A stretch of 64,000 nucleotides of DNA from Pirellula sp. SH-Sr6A (GTDB lineage: Bacteria; Planctomycetota; Planctomycetia; Pirellulales; Pirellulaceae): assembly GCF_001610875.1 (NCBI RefSeq), contig NZ_CP011272.1:3701988-3765987 (forward strand). Reading direction: 5' to 3'. The position numbers and the translations under genes are program-made. The notes below the pieces were generated by a model. The model searched no databases and was not told where the DNA came from. It saw nothing but the letters and a program-made list of their open reading frames with translations. Shown in pieces: positions 9,231 to 61,319 of this stretch. Position 1 is the stretch's first letter, and each line of letters starts with the position of its first letter.

Positions 9231-9474
9231 GGCTTTTTTTCACATTGGTTGAGTACGCATACTTTTCGTCATGGGTTATCCGTGTTCGAAGCGGCACGCT
9301 AGCTGAGTATATCGCGATCTGATTCTGGAGTTCTTCATCTCGCGATACTATTTTCCATGGCGATTTACCGCATCGCGTGAATGGGATTCCTATCAACCGA
9401 TACACCCACTACGTGCGTACCGGTTCAGAACGGACTAGGTCGGAATCTGCGGATTTGGTAATCGAGAACGATTG

Positions 9475-10698: not shown

Positions 10699-10767
10699 CC
10701 GTGATGCGACCTATTCCTGCAGAAGGCTGGAGGCTCCACCACCGATGCTCCGGCCACTACCACCTGC

Positions 10768-41113: not shown

Positions 41114-42445
41114 ATGAGCGAATCGAACGCGCGAGGCCTCGCCTTGCATTGGCGCATCCTGATCGGTCTTGCGGTAGGGGCCATAGCGGGGCTGGTATGC
41201 AAGCAATGGCTAGGGGATCATCCAGGACTCAAATGGTTTAGTGAGAACATTGCCAACACCGTTGGGCAAGTCTTTCTGCGACTCATTTTCATGGTGGTGA
41301 TACCACTCGTCTTTTGTGCTCTGACGCTTGGAGTGGCAGAGATCGGCGATGTTCGAAAGCTGGGTCGACTGGGGCTGATGACGTTCCTGATGACTCTTCT
41401 TTTTTCCGGCGCCTCGGTGGTTATCGGATTGGGGTTAGCGAACACGCTCAAGCCAGGTACCAGTTTGAGCGATGAAAGCAGGGAGAGGCTCAAGGAGCAG
41501 TTTACGAGCGATGCGGATGACAAGATCAAGAAGGCAGGTAGTTCTAAGGGAATTATCGCGACGCTTCTCGAGATCATTCCACGCAATCCGCTCCAAGAAG
41601 CTGTCGGTGCTTTAGACGGATCGTCGCCTGGGAGCGGCCTGCTCGGCGTGATGTTTTTCTCGCTGTGTATGGGGGTTGCGCTGACAACGATTGGGGACAA
41701 GGCGAAGCCGGTCCTCGCCGTGTTGGAGGGGTTCTATGAAGCGATCATGGCGATCATACGCACGGCCATGTCGCTCGCGCCCTACGGGGTTGCGGGGCTG
41801 GTCTTTTACGCTACGACGCTGCTGGGCTTCGATATCATTCGGTTGTTGGCGGGATATGTGGTCGCGGTCATACTCGGGCTCAGCATCCACATGTTTGTCG
41901 TTTATTCGATTGCCATTTGGGTGATCGCGAAGCGGAACCCGCTAACCTTTTTTCGAGATATCCTCGAAGTGCTCGTGACGGCGTTTGGGACATCGAGTTC
42001 GAGCGCCACGTTGCCCACTTCGATACGGGTGGTAGATGAGAATCTCAAACTGAATCGAAAAATATCGCACTTTGTCTTGACGATCGGCTCGACAGCGAAC
42101 CAGAACGGGACCGCGTTATACGAGGGGATTACAGTCTTATTCCTCGCGCAAGTCTTTGGTGTGGAGTTATCCCTGAGCCAACAGATTATCGTCGTGTTGC
42201 TATCGATGTTGGCTGGCATTGGGACGGCAGGTGTGCCAGGGGGATCGCTCCCGCTGGTCGTACTGGTGCTTCAGTCGGTGGGTGTCCCTCCTGAAGGAAT
42301 CGCGATCATTATGGGGGTCGATCGTTTGCTCGACATGTCCCGAACCACAGTCAACGTTTGTGGGGATGTCGCGGTTGCGGTATGTGTCGATGCGATTGAG
42401 GGGAAGCGGATGGAATCGCATTCGGACGCAATCACGGCAAGTTGA
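41114..42445 (+). CDS. Dicarboxylate/amino acid:cation symporter (DAACS family)
   Basis: A 443-residue inner-membrane transporter with about eight transmembrane segments plus hairpins. The family motifs are visible: the Ser-rich hairpin AFGTSSSSATLPTSI, the NMDGT-like NQNGTALYEGI, GIGTAGVPGGSLP and the C-terminal DRLLDMSRTTVNVCGD with the Asp and Arg that bind substrate carboxylates. It would import glutamate, aspartate or C4-dicarboxylates with protons or sodium. NMDGT is altered to NQNGT, and the residue changes could shift the cation or substrate preference. Its 3' end overlaps the end of the opposite VWA gene by 14 bases. Confidence 0.93.
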   Translation: MSESNARGLALHWRILIGLAVGAIAGLVCKQWLGDHPGLKWFSENIANTVGQVFLRLIFMVVIPLVFCALTLGVAEIGDVRKLGRLGLMTFLMTLLFSGASVVIGLGLANTLKPGTSLSDESRERLKEQFTSDADDKIKKAGSSKGIIATLLEIIPRNPLQEAVGALDGSSPGSGLLGVMFFSLCMGVALTTIGDKAKPVLAVLEGFYEAIMAIIRTAMSLAPYGVAGLVFYATTLLGFDIIRLLAGYVVAVILGLSIHMFVVYSIAIWVIAKRNPLTFFRDILEVLVTAFGTSSSSATLPTSIRVVDENLKLNRKISHFVLTIGSTANQNGTALYEGITVLFLAQVFGVELSLSQQIIVVLLSMLAGIGTAGVPGGSLPLVVLVLQSVGVPPEGIAIIMGVDRLLDMSRTTVNVCGDVAVAVCVDAIEGKRMESHSDAITAS

Positions 42446-45400
42446 TCGGCAAGGGCAGGTATTCGCTCGCTTCCCGAATTTCGATCTCGATAGGTTCTTC
42501 GTTTTCGAGGCTCCAAGCACCGGATGTGAGACTTCCTTTGTTGTAAATCTCGATTCGATTCGCATTGGACTGGGTGGCGCGGAGTCTAGCTTCTCCTTGG
42601 AAATGAAAGGAGTGCGTTGCGCTCTTCTGCGTGTCGTCGTATTTATGCCGCACCTTGGTAGGGAGGGCATCGGGTGCCGCGACAAACTGCACTTTGGTTT
42701 GATGGATATCGTTTCCTTCCAATTCCTTGCTTTCTTTCACCGTGACGGAATCGATCGTGCGGGAGGACTCAGTAGGCTGCAGGGTGCATTGAACTCGGTA
42801 TCCGGGAATGGAGGGAACGGGCACGCCTGAGGCAAACTTGCTGGGATTGCTCAGTAGCTCTGGGATTGGAATGGAAAGAAGGGGGGTGGCTGGTTCGTCC
42901 GAAAACCAGATCTTGATACTGGCCTGGGTGGCGCGATCGGGCCAATTTCCTGCTCGGCAGTCGACGAGTGGAACCGGAACTCCGCTCTTCCAGTGCTTAT
43001 CGAAGAAGACATAAGGTTTCCCAATGTTTTGTTTCGACTCGGTCTGTGCTTGGATTTCGATCCAAAGTTCGCGGGGTCTGCGAGTGTAGTGGCTATTGGG
43101 ATTTTGGATGGAGATGGGGAAAAGAACCGAGTTGGCTTCAACGGTGGGACGATGGACTCGAGCAATTCGACGTTCTTGGGAATTGGCTTTGCGCAGTACC
43201 CCTAACTTCGGCGAGCCGACGGAATAGGGCTCCGATCGTATTTCGAGTCCGTCTTCCCTCAAGCTCAGTTCGATCGATTCCCCACCCTCTAGAACCATTT
43301 CCTTTTTGATCGTCTGGAAGGAAAGCTCGACTCGTTCGGTGCCGCGTGAGCCGAGTTCGATCTGTACGGGAGAATTGAGTTTGCTAACGGTTTCGTTCCG
43401 TCGCGCGTCGAGTTGAATGTCCGAGCTATTGGAGGAGTTCGAGATCCGATATTCCCCTTTCGAGAGTTGTTCCATCAAGGCTCGGAGCAGCGCGGTACGG
43501 TTGCCGACATCGTAGTATTGGCCGCCGGTGACATCGGCGATTCGATTGAGGTTTTGCCAAGCTTGGCTATCCTGGGTGCGATCGATTCCGACCCCGAGAA
43601 CAAAGGTAGGAACTTTTCGTTGTTCCCAAGCCCGCAGCACATCCTCGAGCGTTGTATCGGCCTCCCGATCACCTCCCGGGGTACGAAGTGCATTGAATTG
43701 GAAATTGTCGCCATCGGTAATCAAGACGACGCACTTTGCGGTCGAGTTGGAGTCGGCGTCGAAGTCCGAATAGGCTTCGATCACCGATTGGTAGACCGGA
43801 GACTGGCCCCAGGGAACGACGCTGCCCAATAGATCGGCGAGTTCGGAAATGGATTGCGGCTGAAAACGGCCGAGCGGCATCACATTCTCGACATCTCGAC
43901 TTGGTGTTAAGCCATCTGGGATCGCTCCGATGTAATTCGGCTGAAGCAGCAGACGGGTGGAGCCGGTGGCACCCGATTTTGAATCGCTGATGGGCCTGGA
44001 CCATCCCATTCGATGTCCGAACAAACGGACACCGACGCGGGCATCCGGAAACCCTGCTAGTTGGTCGAGCAGTTGCAAAATGCCGGCTTTGGCGGCGTCC
44101 AGTTTCGATTGAACTCTCGCATCGACCGCTTCGAGAGGAATCATTCCACCCATGCTGGACGAACAATCAAGCACGAAAACGATCGAGGGTTGTTTTGGCT
44201 TGTCACCAAACAAGACGATTTCAGAACGTCGTTCAGGAACCCACTCGTCCTCTACGACATGGAAGCGATCGATGCTGAGATCTTTCGTGAATTCATGACC
44301 TCGAAATGCGGCCACGAATTCGCTTCGTGCGCCAGACGACGAGTCGAGGGGAGTGTTGAGTACGGACGAGATGGATTCATCGCCGCTAGGAAGTTTGAGT
44401 TCTCGTTCGAGCGAGATCAAGTCGCCAGCAGATGTGCGTTGAAAGAGACCCACGGAACCTGAGGGTAGCTCTGGATTCCACTGGCCTCCGTCGGGCAATC
44501 CAATGCGACTGGTACGGAGTGATATCGATAACGGGTCCGACTCTTCGTCGCCTGTTTTCATATCGAGTATCAAAGCTTGACGATAGGAGCCCACCCGCAC
44601 ATCTAATTGCCGTTGAATCGAAGCGGACAACTCGTCGAGGTCTGCAGAGTTCGCCGGTAACTTCGCTAGATTAGAAAGAAGCTGTTCGACAGCGACTTTG
44701 AAAAAGGGAGCGGCATCTCCCTCGACGGACTTCGTTGCATAGAAATCTTCGAGCGACCGCTGCGCGTACCAGCTCAGTAGATCTTTGATGGCGATATTGC
44801 GAAACAGAGCAAATCCGTGGGCATCGGTTCTTCGTGAGGACCAAGGCGCGAGAATGCGTTCCACATAGTCGGCATACACGGCAGTGGCCCAAGACGCGTT
44901 GGTGTCTTGCAAGGGAAGATCGATACCGGCATTCCGACACCACGCCGCAACGCGGTTAGGAGTGAAGGCAGGGAAGGCATTGAACAAATTGCGCAATTGG
45001 CGATTGCCCTTTTCGATTCGATCCGCCATTTCCGATGGCTCCCCAGCGCCGGCTGTAGCATCTGCAGGATCGGGTTCGAGCAAGGGATAGGTGCTCTGTA
45101 TGTAGGTCAAGAAGGGATGCTCGCCCCAGGCTTCCCAATGAGGGCGCCAGCCGGAGGGGTTTTGCGACGTCTGGAGCATGGAGGCGTCGGCGTTCACGCC
45201 AGGAATCGCATTCTTTCGCCAATTGGATTTCAAACTCTCGACCAAATGATTTCGATTGGATTCATGGTTCGATTCGAGAATCTCTGCTTCCAAAGCACGA
45301 AGTCGATCTCGCACTTCCTTGTCGCTAATCAGAATCTGAAGCTCCGTTCCCACTTCAGCAAGGAGCGCTGCGCCTCGGTCTCGATTTTGCAGGGCGAGTT

Positions 45401-47573
45401 GAGCGTCGAGAGTCCACTGTGTCTGAAGGAATAACCAGTCTTGAAGAATCAGATCCGCTGCATCGCGAATTCGTTCCATTCGAGCGGAGTCCCCTTCGCC
45501 CTCAAGCGAAAGAAGCTGAGTGAAATCCTTGGTAGCATCCAACAATTGGAGAAAGCGATCGATCCCAGCTCGTTTTCGATTCGAGAGACGTGAGGAGGAG
45601 ATCGCTGCGGTTCCCGGCAAGACCAGTTCACCGGAAAGATCCAGCTCGGATCCGGCAGGTGAAGCGAGCGCTTCGTCGCGAAGGGAATGCTCGGCGTCGA
45701 GCCACGCAAGTATATGAGGAGATGTGACTAGAAATAGATCTCGAGTTCGGATCGCTTGATTCGCAAGAGATGCAATGGCTGTCGGATTGGCTTGGAGATC
45801 CGTCAGCGCGCTCTGGAGTGCCTGCGTCTTGGAGTCCAGGAGATCGGTTTGACCCGATAACGCTGTGTCCTCCAAGGAGCGTCGAAGACGGTCCAACGTC
45901 TCTAAATCGGGTCTCTGAATGCGAGTGACCCGCACGTCCCCTGCGCTGACGAATCGCTCCATCTCGTTATGGAGGACCGCGATTTGCTCGATCCGCTCGC
46001 GTGTTGCGGACGGAGCTGCCAGCGCGAATCGTTTGAGCAAATTCACGAAATTGACTTCATTCCAAATGCTCCCGCTCGGAGCGATCTGCGCGGACTTTCC
46101 AAACAGCTCGGTATCGATGAGGTTCCCGTCGGCGATCAGTCCGGGCAGTTCGCTTTGTAGCCGATCTTGGGACGGCCCATCGATTTCACCAAACATCCCT
46201 TTGAGTGCGAGAGAGGGCCAAGGTCCGAAACGAGGTATCGGGGCAGTGGTATTTGCAAGAATCTGCTCTCGTTCGAAGATACTTCGTGCCTTGGGCCCTT
46301 TGGAGCGTTCAACATATCTTTCGAGAGAGCGACTGACCTGCGAGAGCAAGGTCCGCTTCAGCGAATCGCTAAAAGCCATACCAGAGCGATTTGCCTCTTC
46401 TAAGCGAAGCAGCCCTACTTCCATTTCGGTCCAGCGACTCGGGTTATCCAAGTACAGTTGTTGATCGCGAAGCAGGTGATACATCTCCCACAATCGACTT
46501 CGTTCATCGAGTGAGACCGCGGGGCTGGGCAAGTTGGAAGTGATGATCGAGTCCAACAGTTTGGTCTTTTCGTCAGCCAAGCTCGCACGGGCCACAGCGG
46601 TCGATCCCGAGGCTTGGCTCACCAGTAGCGGGGTCTGTTCTTCTCGACGAAATTCCTTGGACCAATCCTGTACACGGGTGGAAACAAACTTTGCCAGTTC
46701 CTGGACCGTAACGACTCCGTCTCCCGGTCGGTTCAAGACATCGGTCCGGTTGATGGCTTCGTAGACATCGGCCCCGCCCGACAAACCCAATCGGAATTCG
46801 CGTCCGAAAAGCGATCCATTCAAATCCGCCGATGCGATGATGTCTTGGCCATCTTTCGCGGCGAGAAGAACGGTTAGATTGGATTCCTTTCGCTCATTCA
46901 TCCACTCCGATACACGGAGAGTGAAGGTTTGAGTGAGCACGCCGGTATGCCAATTCGGTTTCAGATCGATCGGATCGATGACGAGCAAACAGTGCACGCC
47001 CGTGGGCATCGCGGAAACCAGAATGTCCGCGATCTCTTCTACCCCGATCCAGCTGGCCGGATCGAGCGGATCTCCTTCGGTGGGGATCAAGCATGGTTTG
47101 CTCTCATCGTTCACCACACCCTGCATAGCCAGATAGATCACGCAATTCCCAGAACGAGCCGCTTGTTTGGAGAAGCTCGCCACTCGCCGTTCGAGATCTG
47201 CCAACGCCGCGGGTTTGGTCGTCCATTCGCGGCTCGCGTTGATCCAATGGATGGTTTTTCCATTCAACTTTTGGAGCTCGGAGAAATCTTCCGACCGCCA
47301 AGCGGGGAGTTTGATCGGCCACGCGTATTGGCCAGCGCAGACAGCGAGGACGGGTGTTTTGACCGGAGCGTAGGTCAGCAGATAGACCAGCCATCCGGTG
47401 AGAACCACGCCCACCACGACTCCCAGGAGAGGCAAACTGTTTCGTTGACCTTGGACCTTGCCCTTAGAAGTAGGGCTCTCGGTGGACTCCAATTGCCAAC
47501 GATGTTTCTTTTCGTCAATGACAACGGGAGCGTCACCCTTCCAGTTTCGTTCACGGCTACCATTGGTTGTCAT
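42432..47573 (-). CDS. Giant membrane protein: pseudo-caspase domain plus VWA domain
   Basis: About 1713 residues from the ATG at 47573 (TTG at 47588 is also in frame). A single membrane helix sits near residues 46-67 (LLGVVVGVVLTGWLVYLLTY). Residues about 73-335 resemble a caspase-fold (CHAT/C14-like) domain, but the catalytic His region reads YLAMQGVVND and the Cys region LLVIDPIDL, so both catalytic residues are missing. A long helical stretch follows. Residues about 1125-1370 are a VWA domain with an intact metal site: VFVLDCSSSMGG (DxSxS), GQSPVYQS and VLITDGDN. The last 330 residues are beta-rich with no known domain. It is likely an envelope scaffold; function unknown. It is last in the VgrG-associated minus-strand run. 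Confidence 0.82.
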   Translation of the reverse strand: MTTNGSRERNWKGDAPVVIDEKKHRWQLESTESPTSKGKVQGQRNSLPLLGVVVGVVLTGWLVYLLTYAPVKTPVLAVCAGQYAWPIKLPAWRSEDFSELQKLNGKTIHWINASREWTTKPAALADLERRVASFSKQAARSGNCVIYLAMQGVVNDESKPCLIPTEGDPLDPASWIGVEEIADILVSAMPTGVHCLLVIDPIDLKPNWHTGVLTQTFTLRVSEWMNERKESNLTVLLAAKDGQDIIASADLNGSLFGREFRLGLSGGADVYEAINRTDVLNRPGDGVVTVQELAKFVSTRVQDWSKEFRREEQTPLLVSQASGSTAVARASLADEKTKLLDSIITSNLPSPAVSLDERSRLWEMYHLLRDQQLYLDNPSRWTEMEVGLLRLEEANRSGMAFSDSLKRTLLSQVSRSLERYVERSKGPKARSIFEREQILANTTAPIPRFGPWPSLALKGMFGEIDGPSQDRLQSELPGLIADGNLIDTELFGKSAQIAPSGSIWNEVNFVNLLKRFALAAPSATRERIEQIAVLHNEMERFVSAGDVRVTRIQRPDLETLDRLRRSLEDTALSGQTDLLDSKTQALQSALTDLQANPTAIASLANQAIRTRDLFLVTSPHILAWLDAEHSLRDEALASPAGSELDLSGELVLPGTAAISSSRLSNRKRAGIDRFLQLLDATKDFTQLLSLEGEGDSARMERIRDAADLILQDWLFLQTQWTLDAQLALQNRDRGAALLAEVGTELQILISDKEVRDRLRALEAEILESNHESNRNHLVESLKSNWRKNAIPGVNADASMLQTSQNPSGWRPHWEAWGEHPFLTYIQSTYPLLEPDPADATAGAGEPSEMADRIEKGNRQLRNLFNAFPAFTPNRVAAWCRNAGIDLPLQDTNASWATAVYADYVERILAPWSSRRTDAHGFALFRNIAIKDLLSWYAQRSLEDFYATKSVEGDAAPFFKVAVEQLLSNLAKLPANSADLDELSASIQRQLDVRVGSYRQALILDMKTGDEESDPLSISLRTSRIGLPDGGQWNPELPSGSVGLFQRTSAGDLISLERELKLPSGDESISSVLNTPLDSSSGARSEFVAAFRGHEFTKDLSIDRFHVVEDEWVPERRSEIVLFGDKPKQPSIVFVLDCSSSMGGMIPLEAVDARVQSKLDAAKAGILQLLDQLAGFPDARVGVRLFGHRMGWSRPISDSKSGATGSTRLLLQPNYIGAIPDGLTPSRDVENVMPLGRFQPQSISELADLLGSVVPWGQSPVYQSVIEAYSDFDADSNSTAKCVVLITDGDNFQFNALRTPGGDREADTTLEDVLRAWEQRKVPTFVLGVGIDRTQDSQAWQNLNRIADVTGGQYYDVGNRTALLRALMEQLSKGEYRISNSSNSSDIQLDARRNETVSKLNSPVQIELGSRGTERVELSFQTIKKEMVLEGGESIELSLREDGLEIRSEPYSVGSPKLGVLRKANSQERRIARVHRPTVEANSVLFPISIQNPNSHYTRRPRELWIEIQAQTESKQNIGKPYVFFDKHWKSGVPVPLVDCRAGNWPDRATQASIKIWFSDEPATPLLSIPIPELLSNPSKFASGVPVPSIPGYRVQCTLQPTESSRTIDSVTVKESKELEGNDIHQTKVQFVAAPDALPTKVRHKYDDTQKSATHSFHFQGEARLRATQSNANRIEIYNKGSLTSGAWSLENEEPIEIEIREASEYLPLPINLP

Positions 47574-47652
47574 GTTGCGATCACTCAATCAACGCATGGA
47601 TGTGTTGGGCACCAAAGGCTGCTGCAACCTCCGGAATGGATTAGATGGTAGT

Positions 47653-49335
47653 CTAGCGGACTGGTTCGATCGAACGTTTTGAAGCCATTTGAACTGGATT
47701 GCTATCGTGAGCGGTCCCCTCTTCCAAGACGGTCCACACCGAGCTCGCGGCGCGGAGTTGCGCCAACAAGTTCTGCTCAGCTTGGCGTTTGCGCTCCGCG
47801 AGGATTTGCTGCTGAATCTCAGCGGCGCAGTCTGCCAAGGAACGGACTTCTGAGGGAGCGCGTTCCAGCACTCTCAAGACAAACAGTCGTCCATCGTCTT
47901 CGATGATGGGACTGACCTGACCCACCGGCAGTGACTCCAAACACTTGGCCAGTGCCACCGAATCCACGGAGCTCGTGGGCATCCAAGGATAAGAGTTCGT
48001 GTCGAATTGGTGTTTCTGCAGAGTCATGCCGGGATTGGCTTCATAGCCCTCGGCACGTCTTCGAAGTGTTTCCGCGAGACGGATTGCATTTGCCTTCGTT
48101 CCGCACTCGCTCACGTAGACCACCAACTCCTCCCACCTCACTCGGCTCGGTCGGGAGAATCTAGGGCGATGCACCTCGTAGTATGCGGCAATCTCGGAGG
48201 CGGAAATGTAGCTTTCCGTCGGCGATCTTTTTTCAAACCAAGCTCGCATTTCATCCGGTGAAACCGCGTTTGCTGAACTACCTCCGGCCAAGCGCACCTC
48301 GCTTCGAACTTGTTGCTCGATCATTTTCCAGTTCACGGCCTTCTCCACCGCGCGTCGCAACCGGGATTCTTCATCGCGGGGCGAGTCGGTGAGAAGAGAG
48401 CGATCCCCATCGCTTTCGAGCAAGCTGGCGATTTGGCTCCTCGTAATGGATTCGCCATTGACCACTGCGAGGACGCCCTTGTCGGGGCTTCCGTTATTGC
48501 CGTGATCCGTCGTGGTCTGGAACGACACCTTTTGAATTCCGTCGAAAAGATCCGATTCCTTCCTCGCTGCAATCGCTTCTCCGTCCAAAGGGGCTACGGC
48601 AGGGGTCGGGCCTTCTTTCGGTGCATCTTCTTGTTCTAAAGGTTTTGTCGAGCAGCAAGCGAGGGCCAATCGCGCGTGGCGTCGGATTCGGGCGGAGGGT
48701 TCTTTCTCGCAGCGAGTGAGTTCCTCGAGCTTCTTGCGGACGCTGGCACTGCAGCAGGAGGGAGAGCTGCAATATCGGCAACCGCATTCCGGTTTGCATT
48801 GGAGTGCTCGAACTGCTTCGTAGCGAACCGATTCGGTGCAATCTCCCAATCCTTCCAGAAGAGCCTCTTCCACTTTCTCGTAGCATCCCCCACATCCGAG
48901 AGTGGCCAAATATCGAATGGCCATGATCTTTTGTTGGGCGCTGTCCTCTTCCTTCTTAATCTCTGCCGCTGCTTGCACCGCAGGTGGGGCTTCAGGGCCC
49001 ATATTTTCAGGGGCTGTCAGAGGTAGGACAGGGGGTTGCGGTTGGAGCCCCGGAAAACGCCCGGTCAGGTCGAGCGAAGATAACAATCGGCTCCCCAACC
49101 TCTGGAGGCCACCCCCGATGCCTTGTGCGGCGGCGTCTAATCCCAAGAACTTCGGAAGGGTCGTATCGCAAGCTGGGCTGGAGGGTTGGATCGCGACAAT
49201 CGTCGTGCTTCCAGCGTTCGCGCTGGTGGGAGGCGGGGCGGTAGGAGCGGGTTTAGGAACCGAGGCGCAGCCTACCAGGGGGGCAAAGAGGAGCCATCCG
49301 AACCAATACCACCCTCTGGGAAGGCTCAAAGCCAT
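47653..49335 (-). CDS. Cys-rich HEAT-repeat lipoprotein with SurA/PpiC-type foldase domain
   Basis: About 560 residues. The ATG at 49335 opens a lipoprotein signal, GWYWFGWLLFAPLVGCAS, with lipobox LVGC; a GTG 30 bases upstream is an alternative start. After a Pro-rich linker come HEAT-like helices (residues about 135-255) bearing an unusual Cys cluster (LGCGGCYEKV, LQCKPECGCRYCSSPSCC, LACC). The C-terminal half resembles a SurA N-domain and parvulin module: VVNGESITRSQIASLLES, then WEELVVYVSECGTKA and VGQVSPIIEDDGRLFVLRVL, with no second parvulin copy. Parvulins are peptidyl-prolyl isomerases that chaperone outer-membrane proteins. It lies between the two giant genes, 79 and 147 bases away, so it may assist their assembly. 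Confidence 0.75.
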   Translation of the reverse strand: MALSLPRGWYWFGWLLFAPLVGCASVPKPAPTAPPPTSANAGSTTIVAIQPSSPACDTTLPKFLGLDAAAQGIGGGLQRLGSRLLSSLDLTGRFPGLQPQPPVLPLTAPENMGPEAPPAVQAAAEIKKEEDSAQQKIMAIRYLATLGCGGCYEKVEEALLEGLGDCTESVRYEAVRALQCKPECGCRYCSSPSCCSASVRKKLEELTRCEKEPSARIRRHARLALACCSTKPLEQEDAPKEGPTPAVAPLDGEAIAARKESDLFDGIQKVSFQTTTDHGNNGSPDKGVLAVVNGESITRSQIASLLESDGDRSLLTDSPRDEESRLRRAVEKAVNWKMIEQQVRSEVRLAGGSSANAVSPDEMRAWFEKRSPTESYISASEIAAYYEVHRPRFSRPSRVRWEELVVYVSECGTKANAIRLAETLRRRAEGYEANPGMTLQKHQFDTNSYPWMPTSSVDSVALAKCLESLPVGQVSPIIEDDGRLFVLRVLERAPSEVRSLADCAAEIQQQILAERKRQAEQNLLAQLRAASSVWTVLEEGTAHDSNPVQMASKRSIEPVR

Positions 49336-49482
49336 TCGACCATGGAGAAAATCGGGTGCGATCACGTTGGGAGCCCGTCTTGCAATCAGACAAATTGGAA
49401 AAAGCGATCCATACGTAATGCTTCTTCGACTTTCTCGGTGGAATAACTTGAAACTTCTAAATTGCAGGAGGGCACGAACAAG

Positions 49483-52400
49483 TTATTTTAGCTGGATCTC
49501 CTTCCGCAGCGGTGTGGCGGGTTCCCCTTTGACCGTCAGGCTCTCTTCGAATCGCCTTGGACGATTCTTAATGACCGCTGTTGCTGAAAGTTTGTACTTC
49601 CCTGGCAAAACACCTTGAAGGCGAAACAGCCCGAGCGCATCGACGGAAGTGCTAGCGATCACCTCACCGCTTTCTTTGGATAAGGTCACCACGGCATTGG
49701 AAACAGATCGCTCCGCGTAGGTCACCAGTCCGACGATTTCGCGAGGGCGCGTAGCAATCATCTTTTGCCATTCGTCCTCTCCGACCAGCTCAATGGTTCG
49801 CCTCTCGATCTCGCTCACATTTCCTGCGCGATCTGTTGCGGCAACTATGAGCGTAGACATGCCGGTGGGGGCTTCGGAGGTGGGCACCGTGATTCGCCAT
49901 GTTTGGTCTTCTTGACGCACTCCCAGTACCGGTGCTTGGATTTCAGACCACTTCAAAACACCTCGCGTGTCGATCGCGGCTTGCACTCCTGCTACTCCAC
50001 TCAACGAGGCATCGTCGGCGGAAACGCGAAGGTCGAGGTCCGTGCCCTTGGGGAGACGCATGCTGGGTTTTATTTCGATACCTTGGATCGATGGCTTATC
50101 CCCGTCGATCACAACAGGAATCGGTGTACTCCACACGGATTGACCGCCGCTTTGGAGTCTTGCCAGCAAATTGATCTTCCGGTTCACGGGGGTGGGAGGG
50201 GGGAGATTTAACCGGAAGTCGGTTACCTTGGGTTGAATCTTGGTTCCTTGAATGCCGTAACGGGAGGCTTGGATCGTCAGGTCGCGATCGGAACGAATCA
50301 CGAGTGGTGTCTCATCTTCAAATTCGCGATCTTGGTCTTCATCCCATCCGATTTCGAGACGGTCGCCATCATTGAGAAAAGAGTCCGCCCATGCGTCGAC
50401 GAGGACTTGGACATCCGGCAGCGTTTGTCCAGGCAAGAGCGCCGAGTTGGGAAGTACGTTTTCGATTTGAATGCGAGGTCGATCGTTGCGTACCGGGGCG
50501 CTGGAGAAGGTTCTCCAACAGGGAATGCTAGCTACGAAGGCTCTTGGGTACTCTTCGACATCGAGTTCGACGTTCAGCATTCGCAGAGTTGTAATGGGTA
50601 CTTTGCAGTACAAACGAAGGGGCGTGTCGGGCAGTAGGGTTCCCGAAAGCTTCATTTCGGTACCCTTAGGAAGGTTCTCGCGAACGCGACCGGCCACGGG
50701 AACTCCGGCGGCTGGGAGGAGAGATGGATCTCGGCAAGTGAGCACCAATTCGGCTGTTTCCGAGATACTGTCATAGCTGCAACGCGCATCGATATAGCTT
50801 CTCGGGTGTCGAGTTCGCATCGTGATCCATCGCCAACCGGTTCGTCCGGTTTCTTGGTTCTGGAATTCGGCAATCACTCCATACGAGACGGTGTCCATCG
50901 GTTCGGGAGCTGCTCCGTCGCCCGCTGCGGTTTTGCTAGTCAATTCCGTCGAGGTAGCGCCCGGAGCGTTCGGGGCGGAAGGTGGCGCAGATTTGGGAGA
51001 AAACCAAGCGGTGGATTCAGCGCTGGTGAGTTCGACTGCGTTGCATTCCTGCCAGAGTTTCAACTCAGGGAGCTTGGTCTTGAGTGTCGCGCTCGCTTCA
51101 TTGGAGAGCTCTCCGGTTGGCAACAATACCGAGATGGGACTTTGAGGAATCCAAAGCCGAACGTCGTATTTACCAGCTCCCACTTCCGAGGCTCGCAGGC
51201 CGAATCTCGCCGATGCGGTGCGATTGGGGAATAGATCGATATCGATGCCTGAGGAGGACGGACGCCATGCCCCTCCCTGGATTTCCGCCATCAATCGAAC
51301 ATCGCTCGACGAGGGTAAGCGAACGCGGGTTTCCAAACGGGTGTACTGCGAGCGAGTGACCACTTTCCAAAGGACTTTCTGGCTCCCATCCGGTCTTTCG
51401 CTTCGCGAGATTCGGAATGAAATGTCTTTGGTGCTGTTGGGTGGAATAGCGATCGTGGGTTCCACGGTGGCTGCGACGGGATCGATGGGATAGAGGAGTC
51501 CATTCGTCAACTGTTGCATGCTGTTTCGGACAGCTTGCGCATCGCGACGATCGCTGGTGGGAGGTGAGGTCGCGAGAAGCGCGGCGAGGCGTTCCTCCAA
51601 GCTCTTCTTCTCCTTTTGCAATCGATCTTGGAGATCGGGGAGAAAGTAAAGTGGTTCACCCTGAAGCGGTTCGATGGCGATGGACTGAGCATCCAGATCA
51701 GCTAGAAGCCAGACTTCCTGCACCGAAGGACTTCGATTTCTCAATCGCAGGGAGACGATCTGTTCGCGACTCGATTCCAATGAGATTTGAGGTGGGGCTT
51801 GTGCGACCACGTCATTGGGTGCGAAGGGGGAGTCCTGCGAGGTCGGCAGGATGGTCGCCAACCTTTCTCGCAGTTGAGTATCGGCCGTCCAATAGAAGTT
51901 ATATTCCTCTTCCGTCGCATCTTTCAAAGCCTGGCGAAAGCATGCGCGGCGAACACGCATCAACTGGGCAGCTTCCTGCCTCGCGATCGATTCGAACAGC
52001 AAGCGAGGGTTTAATGCATCGGGCGAATCCACTCGCACTTGCCGAACTGCGTTTTCCTGCCGGCGCAATGTCTCAAGAGTCGATTCTTGATCCCACTGAG
52101 TAGGGTCAACACGAAATGTCGCTCGCCAGTTCTGCAACTCATTCCAAAAAGGGGCCCGCTCGGAACCTCGCCCGTCGGTATTGAAAAAGGGAATCGCTTC
52201 CAACACCGATTTGACGGGGGCAGGTGATTGGATCCATTGTAGCCATCGTTGAAAGAGGCGATCGCGTTCTGGGCCGCTGTAGTAGGACCACTCTAGCAGC
52301 TCATGGATCAGCCAGTAATCCGAGACTTTGGGTTCGGAGTCCACGCCGTCGAGTCGACTGGCTTCTTGAACCCAGATGTCTTGCAAGACTCCCAGCTGTT

Positions 52401-54654
52401 CTTCGAGAGCGACCGTCGTTCGTTGAATGCTTTCGAGCGAGCTGGACTCAAGGCTTATCAATTGTTCCGTGAGTTCGCGATGCAAAGGAAGGGTTCGGGC
52501 GAGTGTGGACTCGATCGCAACATCGAAATCCGTGCGTTGAACGGGCGAAGCAAGTCGTTCATTCCAACCGTTCCATTCGTAATGGACGCGATACCAAAGT
52601 CTTTTTGCCAATTGGACTTGTTGGACCTGCTGCTCGGCGTTGACCAAATCCCTTTCCACATTGTCAAAGCTTTCCCTCGCACGGGTTTCCCAGTCATTCG
52701 GAACCAGGTCCGTGCATAACCTCGTCGCCCGCAACCACTCTTGGAACGCGGACTGCAGTTTTGCACTCAACTCGCGATTGCTGCTCGCCGGTTCGGAAAG
52801 CAAGTGATCGAGCTTGCGAAAGAGTCTCAACGCTCGTCGGGTGAGTTCCCAAGGAGCTTGCTGGTCGACCGTCAATCTCCTCGCATAGAAGCAATCGGCG
52901 AGCAAACTTTGTTCGAACGGAGCTGGAGTTTCTAATAGCTTGGTCAGCGCCTCCGCGTTGGGGGCGATCAACGCATCATCAAAGGACCGAGTCCATTCGG
53001 TGACTGCGGGCGCCATCTCCGTGCCTCGCGAGGCGATGGCGAGCCACGTCAAAGAGACGGGGGGGATCTCGTCGGACATCGGTGCAGGGAGTTGTTTTTG
53101 CCAAGCCTCTAAAGGGCCTTCGAGCTTGACGGACTTGTCGGTGGCCAACTGGTGGATGGCGACGATGAGAGCGACCAGTTCTGCACGGGATATCGAGGTA
53201 TCGGGGGAGCCCCCCAGTCGCAGTTTGCTCTCCATGTTGCGAAGTTTGCTAATCGTGTAGGCCCATGCGACGGGGATCGATTCCCATGGCCGAAAGGGAC
53301 TTGCATGATTCTGTTCGACGTAGGAGCAATACTGTCGCGCCAGTTGGAGCAATTGCACGGAGTCGTTGATCGCAGCGGCGAGGGATCGGAGATCGGGACC
53401 ATTTGGGAGTTGGAGATCGGCGGGAGGCGTCGAGCTGTCGGTTTTGTCGGTAGCGGCGGGATCTTCGGCGAGATCGGGGCGGAGACCGATCGAGACTTTG
53501 ATGGGGTCGGCGACAAAAGAGGGGAGTAGATCGATGTTATCGGAAATTTCGTCGGCGATGCGTCCTGAGACCCGTTCCGACTTCTCTGCTGCAAGTTTGG
53601 AAAGCCATCCTTGCGCTTTTTTATTTTCTTCCTTGAGCACCTCCGCTTCAGGGGGAGGTTCGGTTGGGGAAGCCGACTGCTCTACCGTTTGTTGCATCTC
53701 GAGCAATCGTTGCTTCCAAGTTGATTCAGGGACGCTGGCCACGGTCCAATCGTTGAAGGCCTCCAGTCTCCGACGATCTCCTAAAAAGAGTGGAGTTTGG
53801 GCGACTTCACCTTGCGATTCGGATTGGACGATCTCAGCGGTCGTGCGTTCGACGAAGCGAAAGAATTCTTGGAAGGATACTTTCTTGTCCTCGCCGATCG
53901 AGCCGTCGCCTGCGAGTGCGCGGGAGCACGCGACGAGGAATGCGGGAACGCGATGGGTTACCGACAGATGGCTGCGCTCGGTAGCTGAATGGGATGCGAT
54001 CACCCAGAGTTTTGCATAATTGGGTTGTTTCAGCAGCTCATGCAGATTGTCGAGAATCGAGGGTGGTCCCGACGTTGGAGGAGCTTGGAGAGATTCGAAA
54101 TCGACGAGGACCAGAACGCGCTGGACGGGTAGCTGAGCGAGCTTGCTAAAGATGTCTTCAAACAGCACGGCGCTGGCATCGGCGTTTCCGGGTATCAGGT
54201 CGGAGGAGTGGAGTGACGCGCGTCCGTTGACGATCGATGCTTTGCCGCTGAGGTAGATGATCGGTAAATCGGAGGTTCGCCAGTTTTCCTGGAGAAGGTT
54301 GTCGATGGAAGCCAGAGCCTCGGGGGGGGAGGACCATTCTCGAAATTGCGAGGACGCCTCTGCTTCGTCGAAGTACCCGTCGCTGGAGAGAAAGCGAATG
54401 GCAGCATCTCGAAAAAAGGGAACAGGCTCAACCCATGGAGACCGATAGTCCCCGGCAGAAAAGAAATAGAGTCGAACGTTTGGGTGATAGAACGGCGCGA
54501 AAAGGAGGTAGGCAAAGAAGCAGAGTACCGCTGTCAGCACGAACGAGAACAGGGCTCGTCGCAAGACGATCGACTGGAGTTCGCGAAACGAACCCTCGTT
54601 CTGAGGTCGCCAGGATTCGCGAAGCGTCGCAGGTCGGATAGTTCGATTTGGCAT
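49483..54654 (-). CDS. Giant membrane protein: pseudo-caspase domain plus C-terminal Ig-like/regulatory domain
   Basis: A 1723-residue protein. One membrane helix lies at residues about 34-54 (ALFSFVLTAVLCFFAYLLF). Residues about 60-310 look like a caspase-fold domain with lost catalytic residues: IIYLSGKASIVNGRASLH replaces the His motif SGHG, and VLVLVDFESLQ replaces the Cys motif; LWVIASHSATERSHL and VPAFLVACSRALAGDG follow as in CHAT/C14 proteins. A helix-rich middle of about 650 residues lies between. The C-terminal third is beta-rich and ends in a carboxypeptidase-regulatory-like domain (VVTLSKESGEVIASTSVDA, FRLQGVLPGKYKLSA). Its start lies two bases after the FHA gene stop, so the two are coupled. 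The function is unknown. Confidence 0.82.
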   Translation of the reverse strand: MPNRTIRPATLRESWRPQNEGSFRELQSIVLRRALFSFVLTAVLCFFAYLLFAPFYHPNVRLYFFSAGDYRSPWVEPVPFFRDAAIRFLSSDGYFDEAEASSQFREWSSPPEALASIDNLLQENWRTSDLPIIYLSGKASIVNGRASLHSSDLIPGNADASAVLFEDIFSKLAQLPVQRVLVLVDFESLQAPPTSGPPSILDNLHELLKQPNYAKLWVIASHSATERSHLSVTHRVPAFLVACSRALAGDGSIGEDKKVSFQEFFRFVERTTAEIVQSESQGEVAQTPLFLGDRRRLEAFNDWTVASVPESTWKQRLLEMQQTVEQSASPTEPPPEAEVLKEENKKAQGWLSKLAAEKSERVSGRIADEISDNIDLLPSFVADPIKVSIGLRPDLAEDPAATDKTDSSTPPADLQLPNGPDLRSLAAAINDSVQLLQLARQYCSYVEQNHASPFRPWESIPVAWAYTISKLRNMESKLRLGGSPDTSISRAELVALIVAIHQLATDKSVKLEGPLEAWQKQLPAPMSDEIPPVSLTWLAIASRGTEMAPAVTEWTRSFDDALIAPNAEALTKLLETPAPFEQSLLADCFYARRLTVDQQAPWELTRRALRLFRKLDHLLSEPASSNRELSAKLQSAFQEWLRATRLCTDLVPNDWETRARESFDNVERDLVNAEQQVQQVQLAKRLWYRVHYEWNGWNERLASPVQRTDFDVAIESTLARTLPLHRELTEQLISLESSSLESIQRTTVALEEQLGVLQDIWVQEASRLDGVDSEPKVSDYWLIHELLEWSYYSGPERDRLFQRWLQWIQSPAPVKSVLEAIPFFNTDGRGSERAPFWNELQNWRATFRVDPTQWDQESTLETLRRQENAVRQVRVDSPDALNPRLLFESIARQEAAQLMRVRRACFRQALKDATEEEYNFYWTADTQLRERLATILPTSQDSPFAPNDVVAQAPPQISLESSREQIVSLRLRNRSPSVQEVWLLADLDAQSIAIEPLQGEPLYFLPDLQDRLQKEKKSLEERLAALLATSPPTSDRRDAQAVRNSMQQLTNGLLYPIDPVAATVEPTIAIPPNSTKDISFRISRSERPDGSQKVLWKVVTRSQYTRLETRVRLPSSSDVRLMAEIQGGAWRPSSSGIDIDLFPNRTASARFGLRASEVGAGKYDVRLWIPQSPISVLLPTGELSNEASATLKTKLPELKLWQECNAVELTSAESTAWFSPKSAPPSAPNAPGATSTELTSKTAAGDGAAPEPMDTVSYGVIAEFQNQETGRTGWRWITMRTRHPRSYIDARCSYDSISETAELVLTCRDPSLLPAAGVPVAGRVRENLPKGTEMKLSGTLLPDTPLRLYCKVPITTLRMLNVELDVEEYPRAFVASIPCWRTFSSAPVRNDRPRIQIENVLPNSALLPGQTLPDVQVLVDAWADSFLNDGDRLEIGWDEDQDREFEDETPLVIRSDRDLTIQASRYGIQGTKIQPKVTDFRLNLPPPTPVNRKINLLARLQSGGQSVWSTPIPVVIDGDKPSIQGIEIKPSMRLPKGTDLDLRVSADDASLSGVAGVQAAIDTRGVLKWSEIQAPVLGVRQEDQTWRITVPTSEAPTGMSTLIVAATDRAGNVSEIERRTIELVGEDEWQKMIATRPREIVGLVTYAERSVSNAVVTLSKESGEVIASTSVDALGLFRLQGVLPGKYKLSATAVIKNRPRRFEESLTVKGEPATPLRKEIQLK

Positions 54655-54656
54655 CT

Positions 54657-55583
54657 CTATTCCTGCGTTCTTGCGCCCGGGATAAGGTAGTTTGTGGGGG
54701 GCATGCTTTCCATCCAGGTCTGAAGAACGAGATGGGATGCGGTGGGGTGATGCCGACGCGCCAATTGCTCGACCGCGATCGCAACGAGCCGGCTAGTCAA
54801 ACGTGGATCGGGGGGAATCGGTTCTCCCTCCGCAGGACCGAGGGATCCTCCGCTCCATCCGATTGCCGCCGCCAGGGCCGCGACGGGGCCCGCCCACTTC
54901 AGTTTCTTCGCTAGTTCCAAGGCCGCGACCCGATCGGCGTCGTTTGGTTGCTCCATCCAATTGCGGCAGTGAGTCCAAGCATCCCGTTCGGCCGGCTTTT
55001 GGGGTGATTCAAGATGAGTCCCGATCAATGCACCGGCCCATGCGATCAGTTCGTGTCGATCGCAGTGGAAGCCTTTCCATCGCAGGGAATCGCTGTACCG
55101 ATTGGCACTGACTAGCTTGCGTTCAATGGCATCGCCTTGGGAGCCATCCGACACGAGTTCGGAGGGGTCCTCTTCGATTTCGAGGTAAGTCACCCTCTCC
55201 GCCCAATGCGCTACATCGAATTCAGCGCGCGCCGTCTGGGTATCGACCATTCCCATTCCCGGCATGGGTACCGAAGCACCTTCGATCGCGAAGAGGAACT
55301 CGGATCGACCGATGCTGAGCCTGTCGCGATCATGCAAAAGGTGCTCGCAGGGATTGGCTAATGGACTGCCGTTGAGCAGCGGGCTGCTCGACGCGGATCG
55401 GACGACCAAGACTCCTGCGTGGGGTTCGCAGCGAATGACGAATGGTGAGTCGTCCATACGATCATCTTCCGGGATGGCAAAGTCATTCCAATCCGAGCGT
55501 CCAACGCTCGCCAGCTGACCGCTGCGCAGAACAAATCGCTGCCCCGTAGAAGGACCTGAAGTGACGGTGATGGCAATTCGCAT
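54657..55583 (-). CDS. FHA-domain protein with C-terminal DUF6931-like domain
   Basis: A 308-residue soluble protein. An N-terminal FHA domain (residues about 1-110) shows LASVGRSDWNDFAIPEDD (the G-R-S phosphothreonine-binding motif), FVIRCEPHAGVLVVRS and PLLNGSPL with the conserved N-G. Residues about 130-308 resemble DUF6931: HCRNWMEQPNDADRVAALE, AAAIGWSGGSLGPAEGEPIPP, and SRLVAIAVEQLARRH. This domain is common beside VgrG in type VI-linked neighbourhoods, from memory. GAGGG precedes the ATG. FHA proteins of type VI systems bind phospho-threonine targets to trigger assembly; here the kinase is not encoded nearby. It lies 21 bases downstream of vgrG and is coupled to the giant gene behind it. 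Confidence 0.8.
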   Translation of the reverse strand: MRIAITVTSGPSTGQRFVLRSGQLASVGRSDWNDFAIPEDDRMDDSPFVIRCEPHAGVLVVRSASSSPLLNGSPLANPCEHLLHDRDRLSIGRSEFLFAIEGASVPMPGMGMVDTQTARAEFDVAHWAERVTYLEIEEDPSELVSDGSQGDAIERKLVSANRYSDSLRWKGFHCDRHELIAWAGALIGTHLESPQKPAERDAWTHCRNWMEQPNDADRVAALELAKKLKWAGPVAALAAAIGWSGGSLGPAEGEPIPPDPRLTSRLVAIAVEQLARRHHPTASHLVLQTWMESMPPTNYLIPGARTQE

Positions 55584-55604
55584 CTGAAAAACGCCCTCGC
55601 GTGA

Positions 55605-57584
55605 TTAGTTGATGTTGATCACTCCACCCTTCAAGTCGAGCGTTGCCGATGCCTCGACTTTTCCGGTTGTCGAAGTCATCTCGGCCGAAAGTCCCGCTTC
55701 GATTTTGATATTGGTGGATTTGAGGGTGATGCTCGATCCATCGATGACAATACTACTACCTCCGACCTGCAAAGTGATTTTTTGCCCAGCGTCGATGGTG
55801 CAGGTGCCTGATGGAATGGAGATAGATTGGTTACCAGCCGAGATAGTGAGCGAATCGTTTCCTTGTTCGATCTTCGTGGTGCGATCGCCGGTTTTGATAG
55901 TCTCCTTTTGGTCCTTCCAGATCTCGATCGTTTGGCTGCCGTCGCTCGATTCTTGTGTCCCCACGTGGATGGTTTGGTTGTTGAAGACGTCGACGGTCTG
56001 ATCGCCTTTATCCTTTTTGATAAATCCAACTTTGAGGCTATCGTTGTTTTCGACGACCCGTTCGAAGTCCTTTTCGGCGTGGAAGTAGACGAGTTCTTCG
56101 TCTTTCTTGTCGACGAATCGCAACTCGTTATACGTCTCTGCGGTGCCGGAGGGGGTCGACCTGGTCTTGATACCGCTCGTCGCCGCTTGATCGGGAAGTG
56201 CATATGGGACGACTTGGTCGGTGTTGTAGACACGACCGGTGATAAGGGGACGATCGGGGTCACCTTCCAAAAACTCCACGACGACTTCTTGACCGATTCG
56301 CGGAATGAACATGGCTCCCCAGGATTTGCCTGACCAGATTTGCGCGACGCGAATCCAGCAGGAGCTGTTTTCATTGGAAGTCCCTTCGCGATCCCAAGGG
56401 AATTGAACCTTGACTCGTCCGAGATTATCGGTCCATATTTCCTCTCCGTTCTTTCCAACAACCTTGGCGGTCTGGGGGCCCGCGATAATCGGCCTAGGAG
56501 TGGTGACCGGCGTTCGGAACTGTTGGGTCTTTTTGATTGCAACGAACTCCACGATCGATTCGTTATCGGAGTCCTGTCGGGCTTGGTCGATCTCTCCCGA
56601 AGTGATGGTGGTTCGAGACGAGATGATCAGATAAAGCTCATTCTCGGAATTCGATGGATGTTCGGATAATTGGAAGACGTATCCCGGTCTTAGTCTCCAA
56701 GACTTTGCAACACCTTGGATTTGCGCGAACTGGCTACCATGCAATTCCGACAGGACTCGCACGTAGTTAGTGCCATCCGCTGTTTCGGAGTAGAGTCCGG
56801 GGTAGTCGAAATGTTCGAAGCTCGAATGGGGGTGTGATTGCTCCCCGTTGAGTCGGACTTCCAGATTGACGTTCGGCTTGATGTAGTCAAAATCCCTATA
56901 AACAAACTTGCCCGGTTGAATTACCAGGCGATGTTTCCACACGTAAATATGCTCGTCGGCCGCTTCCGCATTGTTGGGCGGTCGAAATGGAATTGTGGGG
57001 GTGCCGCTGATTTTGGCGTGGGATGAAACGTTGTCGACCAAAATCATCTTGTGGTCGGATTGCGAGTGATCGAAGTAATAGTAGATCCCTTCCTGCTCCA
57101 TCAATCGGCTCGCGAACTGAAAGTCCGATTCTCGATATTGCACGCAGTAATCTCGGACCTTGTACGTCTTCGTGAGTTTGGATTGGTAATCGGTCAACCC
57201 ATTCTTGGTTCGAAAAACATATTCAATGATTTTCGATGGATCCAATTGCTGGTGGATCCGGCAATCGCTCGTGTGAGTTAAGAGCCAGAACCAAGGCTTC
57301 AATTCGAATTTGTACAAGAAATAACTACCGATCTCGCCGACCAGTTCAAAGTGCGAGATGATTCCGTGAAAGAATCGTGATTCTCCCCAGTTCGCTACTT
57401 CGATCGCAACCGATTTGCCGATCGTCAGATAGGGGCTGATGTCGGATTTGGTCGAAAGGACTTCGACCTGGATGGAGAACAGCCGCCCCAAGTGTTCTTC
57501 TGCAACCAGTTTTCGGAAGATCGTCGACTCGTCAAAAACACCGTGAATCTTGTTGATGCGTTGGGCGTTGACTCCGCTCGACAT
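55605..57584 (-). CDS. VgrG/TssI-like spike protein
   Basis: A 659-residue protein of full VgrG layout. The gp27-like N-terminal half (residues about 1-375) contains LVAEEHLGRLFSIQVEVLST, quoted in part, and LMEQEGIYYYFDHSQSDHKMILVD, the FxxxxLxxEGIxYxFxH motif. The gp5-like OB region (about 380-470) carries the most conserved block: KVVGKNGEEIWTDNLGRVKVQFPWDREG (quoted as WTDNLGRVKVQFPWDREG), SCWIRVAQIWSGKSWGAMFIP and EVVVEFLEGDPDRPLITGRVYN. The C-terminal 190 residues form a beta-helix (GNQSISIPSGTCTIDAGQ), ending without an effector extension. VgrG trimers form the puncturing tip of contractile secretion systems; no Hcp, TssB, TssC, TssK or PAAR gene is in the window, so it is an orphan or distal locus here. 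Confidence 0.92.
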   Translation of the reverse strand: MSSGVNAQRINKIHGVFDESTIFRKLVAEEHLGRLFSIQVEVLSTKSDISPYLTIGKSVAIEVANWGESRFFHGIISHFELVGEIGSYFLYKFELKPWFWLLTHTSDCRIHQQLDPSKIIEYVFRTKNGLTDYQSKLTKTYKVRDYCVQYRESDFQFASRLMEQEGIYYYFDHSQSDHKMILVDNVSSHAKISGTPTIPFRPPNNAEAADEHIYVWKHRLVIQPGKFVYRDFDYIKPNVNLEVRLNGEQSHPHSSFEHFDYPGLYSETADGTNYVRVLSELHGSQFAQIQGVAKSWRLRPGYVFQLSEHPSNSENELYLIISSRTTITSGEIDQARQDSDNESIVEFVAIKKTQQFRTPVTTPRPIIAGPQTAKVVGKNGEEIWTDNLGRVKVQFPWDREGTSNENSSCWIRVAQIWSGKSWGAMFIPRIGQEVVVEFLEGDPDRPLITGRVYNTDQVVPYALPDQAATSGIKTRSTPSGTAETYNELRFVDKKDEELVYFHAEKDFERVVENNDSLKVGFIKKDKGDQTVDVFNNQTIHVGTQESSDGSQTIEIWKDQKETIKTGDRTTKIEQGNDSLTISAGNQSISIPSGTCTIDAGQKITLQVGGSSIVIDGSSITLKSTNIKIEAGLSAEMTSTTGKVEASATLDLKGGVININ

Positions 57585-57686
57585 TTCGAACTACCTTTCA
57601 AGCAATCACTGCAATATCGAACAGGAAAAGATCTCGGTGGTGTGGGCATCGCTCCGGATCGCTCGAGAACATTCAGTGCCCAACTC

Positions 57687-57732
57687 CGTACTGTACCCAA
57701 ACCAGTCACTCGCACTGTACCCAAACCAATCA
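57687..57732 (+). repeat. Two direct copies of a 22-bp unit
   Basis: CGYACTGTACCCAAACCARTCA occurs at 57687-57708 and 57711-57732, with two differing bases (C/T and G/A) and period 24. The second copy ends with the stop codon of the small minus-strand gene at 57730. They lie between that gene and vgrG. Confidence 0.8.
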
Positions 57733-57942
57733 ACTATCGCGACTCTTCGAACCTTTTCCGCCCCGCATGGTACTGATGTTCGAAGCCACTTCTTTCATCT
57801 CGCGTCTCCGGTTCTTGGCGACTTGATAATGTCGCTGGAGACGGGCGTGTTTCGCTCGCAAGTTGAGATGGAGGTTTTTCAAGAAGGAAAGCCCGGGAAC
57901 TTCTTTTAGTTCATTGAGGATGCTATCGAGTAATTCGAACAT
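57730..57942 (-). CDS. Small basic protein upstream of vgrG
   Basis: Seventy residues from the ATG at 57942, which has GGAAG about seven bases before it (GCGGAAGAATCGCATG). The sequence MFELLDSILNELKEVPGLSF leads into an amphipathic helix and a strongly basic tail (NRRREMKEVASN, KGSKSRDS). No domain, signal or membrane segment was recognised. A 13-residue longer start is possible. It sits 145 bases upstream of vgrG on the same strand and may start that transcript. It could be an adaptor or chaperone, but that is only a guess. Confidence 0.48.
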   Translation of the reverse strand: MFELLDSILNELKEVPGLSFLKNLHLNLRAKHARLQRHYQVAKNRRREMKEVASNISTMRGGKGSKSRDS

Positions 57943-61286: not shown

Positions 61287-61319
61287 TTGCTTTCCTATTT
61301 CCGTTTACGGAGTTACCAA

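Follow-up and report, generated by a model that had tools for sequence, protein, structure and literature searches.

Paired giant membrane proteins as a candidate replacement for periplasmic TssM and TssJ in a type VI secretion system of Planctomycetia

Introduction

In a normal type VI secretion system (T6SS), the periplasm is crossed by the periplasmic domain of TssM, capped by the lipoprotein TssJ. How a T6SS can cross the periplasm without a TssM–TssJ channel has been answered so far for the Bacteroidota, with their TssNQOPR proteins. Here we analyse a stretch of 64,000 nucleotides from the planctomycete Pirellula sp. SH-Sr6A (bases 3701988–3765987 of one 6.53-Mb contig; hereafter, the window), in which a vgrG gene lies beside genes for two giant membrane proteins, A and B. 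Judged from the sequences, it is likely that this locus supplies, besides the spike, the periplasmic part of a variant T6SS, as an alternative complex in place of periplasmic TssM and TssJ.

Relation to described membrane complexes

Three described membrane complexes, each consulted here through part of its source, bear comparison. Set against the TssJ–TssL–TssM complex of the T6SS-i (Escherichia coli; PMC3213119), the planctomycete system likewise has TssL and the N-terminal part of TssM with its membrane helices, along with an ordinary tail, baseplate, ClpV, VgrG and PAAR; it differs in lacking the periplasmic domain of TssM, in yielding no TssJ match and in having two giant single-pass proteins alongside TssM. 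By tail and baseplate it is a T6SS, and it falls outside the T6SS-i membrane-complex definition that we tested (periplasmic TssM, TssJ). In the T6SS-iii of Bacteroidota, TssL and TssM are lost altogether and the membrane complex TssNQOPR consists of five smaller proteins, including TssR with a vWA domain and TssP with two PKD (Ig-like) domains (PMC10781749). Compared by description, the two systems share a lineage-specific, non-TssM envelope set within a T6SS locus, with vWA (giant B and TssR) and Ig-like (giant A and TssP) modules, but a base of TssL and TssM is retained in the planctomycetes, and the consulted sections of that source mention no caspase fold for T6SS-iii. Because this base remains, the planctomycete system is not a T6SS-iii, although TssNQOPR would, by analogy, be the closest functional counterpart of a giant complex. 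The non-canonical complex of Acinetobacter (TsmK, TagX and TslA; PMC10564176) also has no TssJ and is stabilized by a co-opted enzyme-like fold without catalytic residues, but its TssM keeps the periplasmic domain and TsmK is mainly cytoplasmic. Outside secretion systems, residues 55–307 of giant A resemble the caspase/paracaspase family (MALT1 and caspase-3) in predicted fold, but the catalytic positions of the giants are substituted.

T6SS genes are on record for the planctomycete Rhodopirellula baltica (PMC5394234, PMC2660368; both consulted in part). Among the open-licence PMC matches listed, in the parts consulted, there was no description of a planctomycete T6SS membrane complex, of a TssM without periplasmic domain or of these giants (subscription papers and preprints lay outside this scope).

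The locus and the contractile core of the same genome

The genes that a first-pass annotation had placed in the locus are real and were correctly located, all on the minus strand, as open frames and domain matches attest (window coordinates; aa, amino acids):

57730..57942, minus strand: small basic protein, 70 aa; open frame with ATG at 57942; a possible gene, with conservation by eye only
55605..57584, minus strand: vgrG (tssI), T6SS spike, 659 aa; PF05954 1.7e-82, TIGR03361 2.1e-177
54657..55583, minus strand: FHA-DUF6931 protein, 308 aa; DUF6931 7.4e-23, FHA weak (E 0.1)
49483..54654, minus strand: giant A, 1723 aa; predicted N-terminal membrane helix, predicted pseudo-caspase domain 55–307, helical region 425–935, beta/Ig-like C-terminal part
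47653..49365, minus strand: lipoprotein, 570 aa, with a HEAT-like part and a C-terminal PpiC-type peptidyl-prolyl isomerase (PPIase); Rotamase_2 1.9e-8, HEAT_2 0.0049, lipobox LVGC at 30–33
42432..47588, minus strand: giant B, 1718 aa from TTG; predicted N-terminal membrane helix, region homologous to giant A to ~770, vWA domain with DCSSS motif; VWA 3.1e-6

The gaps from vgrG through the FHA-DUF6931, giant A and lipoprotein genes to giant B (1713 aa if started at its first ATG, 47573) are 21, 2, 117 and 64 bases, and a scan of the locus found promoter- and terminator-like sites no more frequent than in shuffled sequences. The VgrG is full-length, typical and the sole PF05954 match in the whole genome, and DUF6931 likewise has its single genome-wide match in the FHA-DUF6931 protein. 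For the small basic protein, tblastn outside the window returned nothing convincing (best E 1.1); in a relative (G274; G numbers designate sampled genomes) a similar small frame was seen by eye upstream of vgrG.

The same annotation had described the locus as having no contractile core. This was wrong, with TssC matches in the same genome at C1:3798783-3799649 and 3810182-3811090; the core lies 33–55 kb past the right end of the window, so its apparent absence was an effect of the window edge. Profile searches outlined a T6SS cluster at 3798519–3820882 of the same contig, with TssA, TssB, TssC, two Hcp, ImpE/TagJ, TssE, TssF, TssG, ClpV, a second sheath-like gene and PAAR on the minus strand, and TssK, TssL (TssL/DotU, PF09850 1.1e-26) and TssM (629 aa) on the plus strand. 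Sheath, tube, baseplate, ClpV, spike and PAAR genes were thus all found in this genome. In G274, the core is on the same 42.6-kb contig, directly beside the same five genes.

As a separate observation, the second sheath-like protein (567 aa, C1:3798519-3800222) matches both TssB-type PF05591 (5.6e-10) and TssC-type PF05943 (4.3e-45), as if it were a TssB–TssC fusion, a resemblance drawn from profile matches; diverged TssC-like relatives occur near T6SS loci of several genomes (G274:C266:13924, G291:C1:7372029, G333:C6:397340 and G381:C1:1580060).

A short TssM in the sampled T6SS-positive genomes of the class

TssM of the SH-Sr6A genome matches PF14331 only, with hydrophobic segments at the N terminus and one at the extreme C terminus, and it ends at the third membrane helix; neither PF06744 nor PF06761, the TssM periplasmic domains, was matched in this genome, which sets it apart from the canonical T6SS-i TssM. 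For comparison, PF05943 (TssC) was matched in 85 of 392 genomes sampled across the phylum, and 80 of the 85 were taken into further searches (16 of the window's class, the Planctomycetia, and 64 outside it). PF14331 was matched in 78 of these 80. Stop-to-stop TssM frames measured 542–647 aa in all 16 class genomes and at least 1000 aa in 59 of the 62 outside genomes with a PF14331 match, the three exceptions (G197, G268 and G271) being fragmented assemblies. The periplasmic domains were confined to genomes outside the class (PF06761, 0 of 16 versus 34 of 64; PF06744, 0 of 16 versus 22 of 64), and TssJ (PF12790), a profile that may miss very diverged members, was matched in none of the 16 class genomes, SH-Sr6A included, and in 40 of the 64 others. 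When cut after the third helix, 19 long TssM proteins left 679–1098 residues downstream; 13 short ones extended 1–17 residues beyond the last hydrophobic peak (a simple scan found two N-terminal segments in 10 of them and one in 3).

A second sample came from named GTDB genomes scanned with an alignment of short TssM, a query that biases the sample to short TssM. It comprised 43 loci (L numbers). Most carry labels of Pirellulaceae, Planctomycetaceae, Gemmataceae or other Planctomycetota; binning errors may explain a few others (Nealsonbacteria and Kuenenia), and L063 and L080 duplicate G274 and G194. A TssM frame was present in 42 of the 43 loci, and 42 of the 44 frames with an intact 3′ end stopped at most 7 residues past the last hydrophobic window, the remaining two (L070 and L073) each being the 202-aa N-terminal piece of a TssM that is encoded by two separate genes.

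Two further forms of TssM were seen. In the split TssM of some planctomycete metagenome-assembled genomes, the 202-aa N-terminal piece has two membrane segments and adjoins TssL and a giant, and the other frame has the C-terminal segment only and adjoins TssK (L070: 6296-6904 and about 9248-11065; L073); L065, L071 and L072 likely have a split TssM too. Many planctomycete TssM proteins of TssC-positive genomes outside the class (for example, in L095, L099, L100 and L103) are 1400–1600 aa long, with an extended periplasmic region but neither a PF06761 nor a PF06744 match; TssJ is also unmatched in many of the genomes concerned, which may possess yet another type of membrane complex.

Giants accompany the T6SS and in several genomes flank TssM

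To follow the giants across genomes, the 392 genomes were searched at E 1e-10 with one profile per giant, built from 8 rows for A and 5 for B. Profile B matched 16 genomes, comprising 14 TssC-positive ones, all in the class, together with G075 (a 79% complete assembly with giant fragments) and G298; profile A matched 25, with frames of at least 1400 aa only inside profile B's set of 16. Full-length giants by profile were thus present in 15 genomes, 14 of them TssC-positive, compared with 85 of 392 overall. Among the TssC-positive genomes taken further, full-length giants were matched by profile in 14 of the 16 class members and in none of the 64 others (Fisher p 8e-14, a statistic that ignores shared ancestry). 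Weak profile A matches in frames below 1000 aa (G020, G075, G111, G123, G134, G162, G191, G266, G315, G340 and G365, of which G123, G134 and G191 are TssC-positive) were not counted as giants, nor was a 711-aa frame at 3833841 of G307 that also matches a giant profile. The two class genomes missed at this threshold, G137 and G194 (one genus), carry a giant on each side of TssM; in profile-profile comparison, the giant that comes first matches profile A at 1.6e-7 and the other matches A and B at about 1e-9 (four control proteins, 0.024 or worse).

Gene neighbourhoods were read in 14 of the 16 class genomes, including SH-Sr6A (G205 and G327 being the two left aside), and in G298. All 14 class neighbourhoods held two giants. 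The order giant–TssM–giant occurred in six genomes (G105, G137, G194, G307, G361 and G373), extended in G105 and G373 to ClpV–VgrG–FHA–giant–TssM–giant and likewise in G361 with one opposed gene between; in G291 the order was TssK–TssL–TssM–giant, with the second giant divergent. This recurrence of giants around TssM in diverged genera is their strongest tie to TssM. The five-gene order of the window, vgrG–FHA–giant A–lipoprotein–giant B, recurred in G274 beside the core; the order giant–HEAT protein–giant–Hcp–VgrG was found in G333 and G381. The proposal that vgrG and the giants belong to a shared system, which giants occurring mostly without vgrG would have contradicted, came out well: VgrG shares a stretch with a giant in 11 of the 14 class neighbourhoods read, the exceptions being G137, G194 and G307; in G087 it does so with only one of the two giants. 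In the second sample, where many contigs are short, giant-like frames lay within the flanks of 11 of the 43 loci, those of L055, L078 and L079 being broken or cut.

Architecture and homology of the giants

By sequence, giants A and B are homologous to each other. Each has a single predicted membrane helix, at its N terminus, and a structure model compared with Foldseek predicts a caspase fold for residues 55–307 of giant A. At the catalytic His–Cys positions of the alignment, giant A has K/F and giant B Q/P, and among 25 aligned giants the His is kept in 12, the Cys in 4 and both in 3 (by alignment position). With the catalytic pair missing from both window giants, giant A would belong with caspases by its predicted fold and not with caspase-like peptidases by its catalytic residues. 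Beyond the caspase-fold domain, each giant is helical for about 500 residues and ends in Ig-like (A) or vWA (B) modules. Because caspases take up the Foldseek and VIA lists obtained for giant A, no statement is possible on the fold of the helical and beta parts, and the lack of a TssM chain among the structure matches listed carries no weight as evidence. For the giants, sequence profile searches of the PDB yielded no more than weak vWA- and Ig-type matches; for TssM they yielded nothing usable.

A single giant used as phmmer query finds only itself, so all wider claims rest on profiles. The combined giant alignment as query retrieved 4 proteins, including a new giant (P0017) and a WD40 protein (P0018), and each of 14 giant groups matched one of the two profiles, A or B, with an E value no worse than 6.2e-6 (0.024 or worse for four control proteins); from these group-against-profile results, the A-type and B-type sets for hhalign were chosen. 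The typing has exceptions, as the giant before TssM in G361 fits B and not A, and the order of types is swapped in G121 and G339. A quick tree of 41 giants has long branches and was relied on only for the nearest partners of the window copies and for close pairs.

Companion genes

HEAT-like relatives of the lipoprotein adjoin giants or sit in T6SS loci in G274, G333, G381, G361, G137, G194, L066 and L077. A scan of five of these relatives detected no PPIase domain, which makes the HEAT part the conserved one; a lipobox was matched in the window and G274 lipoproteins and seen by eye in G333, G381 and L077.

Kinase genes occur near giants in G105, G373, G333, G381, G087 and G298 (by similarity), and SH-Sr6A has one at 3783615–3789041; the kinase domain was confirmed by Pfam in all three proteins scanned (SH-Sr6A, G105 and G381). 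Together, kinase and FHA protein suggest phosphorylation control, which is documented for other T6SSs. As a side observation, a kinase-WD40 protein of ~1800 aa adjoins a very large protein (2324–3548 aa) with an LExRxVL(N/A)A(A/D)-like N terminus in SH-Sr6A (C1:3783615-3789041 with C1:3773015-3783661), G381 (G381:C1:1603207 with 1608830) and G333 (G333:C6:420344 with 425865), in each case between the giant locus and the T6SS core.

A proposed membrane complex and its alternatives

The first-pass idea that the giants of a T6SS locus replace or extend its membrane complex is well supported: giants co-occur with the T6SS, the giant–TssM–giant order recurs, and genomes with giants have a truncated TssM and no TssJ match. 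Gene content, gene order, TssM truncation, co-occurrence and A/B homology are read from the sequences; that these proteins form a single complex, with a given orientation and the functional steps below, we infer. In the proposed arrangement, TssL and a TssM ending at its third membrane helix would form an inner-membrane base that docks the ordinary baseplate, and giants A and B would build the periplasmic passage in place of the TssM periplasmic domain and TssJ. Each giant would be anchored by its predicted N-terminal helix, hold its caspase-fold domain next to the inner membrane and, past the roughly 500 helical residues, reach with its Ig-like (A) or vWA (B) end toward the outer membrane. 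There the HEAT lipoprotein encoded between the giants may be the partner that replaces TssJ, which is the weakest step, and assembly may be controlled by the FHA-DUF6931 protein and the Ser/Thr kinase encoded near the giants in several genomes. We lean, with some reserve, towards a distinct, hybrid T6SS membrane complex in Planctomycetia that joins a T6SS-i base (TssL, and TssM without periplasmic domain) to a lineage-specific periplasmic channel, which the two paralogous pseudo-caspase giants would build and in which the HEAT lipoprotein would stand in for TssJ.

Several observations weigh against a giant complex in place of periplasmic TssM and TssJ. Outside the class, 24 of 64 genomes also lack a TssJ match and 30 of 64 a PF06761 match, most of them keeping a long TssM and having no giants; as such missing matches are common there too, it is the length of TssM that distinguishes the class. 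The 16 class genomes represent one class, in which truncation of TssM, loss of TssJ and acquisition of the giants may all go back to one event. In G298 (83% complete), which has no TssC match, a 7.7-kb contig encodes a full giant next to a kinase-like gene, and TssM does not adjoin the giants in the six f1 genomes read (SH-Sr6A, G121, G274, G333, G339 and G381), nor does it adjoin a giant in G087. No lipobox was seen in 4 of 9 HEAT proteins, the model of giant B residues 560–1718 is poor (pLDDT 54, pTM 0.30) and the giants diverge very fast. Finally, hhalign detected no homology between the giants and periplasmic TssM (E 0.05 or worse for four giant profiles and four TssM groups, the latter from 19 genomes), in a comparison where five of the six pairs among the TssM groups themselves gave E 0.006 or worse.

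Other explanations account for parts of the evidence. The giants could be T6SS-linked envelope sensors or regulators that, with the FHA protein and the Ser/Thr kinase, detect contact or damage and license firing, another periplasmic protein completing TssM; the FHA gene beside the giants and the kinase genes near them in the six genomes named above would fit this, and vWA, caspase-fold and Ig-like modules are frequent in sensing and adhesion. We consider it unlikely, as two giants are present in 14 of the 14 class genomes read and repeatedly flank TssM, exactly where its periplasmic half is missing, and no other conserved periplasmic candidate turned up, though no systematic search for one was made. 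Slightly less probable again is a split without replacement, in which the giants are a detached and highly diverged TssM periplasmic domain, fused to a caspase-fold domain and duplicated. Past the caspase domain, their parts are arranged as in periplasmic TssM of E. coli, helical for about 500 residues and beta thereafter (PMC3213119, as far as the consulted part describes it), and a giant gene lies directly 3′ of TssM in several genomes; the hhalign values above tell against such a split, in what is a weak test given how poorly the TssM groups match each other. A recognisable TssM periplasmic domain in the giants is, by the same values, not supported.

Large genes near vgrG often encode cargo or adaptors, and the fast divergence of the giants would suit effectors, adaptors or immunity-like partners within a vgrG operon. 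Their N-terminal membrane helix, the conservation of the A/B pair across genera and the genomes in which giants adjoin TssM and not vgrG (G137, G194 and G307) make this very improbable. Least credible of all is a separate envelope machine, functionally unlinked to the T6SS, a suggestion that arose with vgrG as the sole tail gene seen in the window. A machine of that kind without a contractile core, also raised in the first pass, is rejected by the core in the same genome, and functional separation is contradicted by co-occurrence (14 of 15 genomes with full-length giants against 85 of 392 overall being TssC-positive) and by the linkage of giants to TssM, ClpV and TssC.

Across a whole class, the TssM base is kept without its periplasmic half in T6SS-positive genomes, and a candidate replacement is identified that is paired and genetically linked to this base; short TssM may serve as a marker for finding such systems. 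If the hybrid reading is true, the periplasmic half of the T6SS anchor would be a swappable module, and a dead caspase fold would have been co-opted to build it, which would give this fold a structural role in the bacterial envelope.

Other features of the window

Two adjacent large ThuA-DUF7133 proteins with weak cytochrome c matches are encoded on the plus strand at 26883–31481 and 31705–36459 of the window, the second also having GDSL lipase and F5/8 type C domains. Further along, at 61287–62237 (plus strand), lies a voltage-gated-type ion channel (Ion_trans 1.4e-43).

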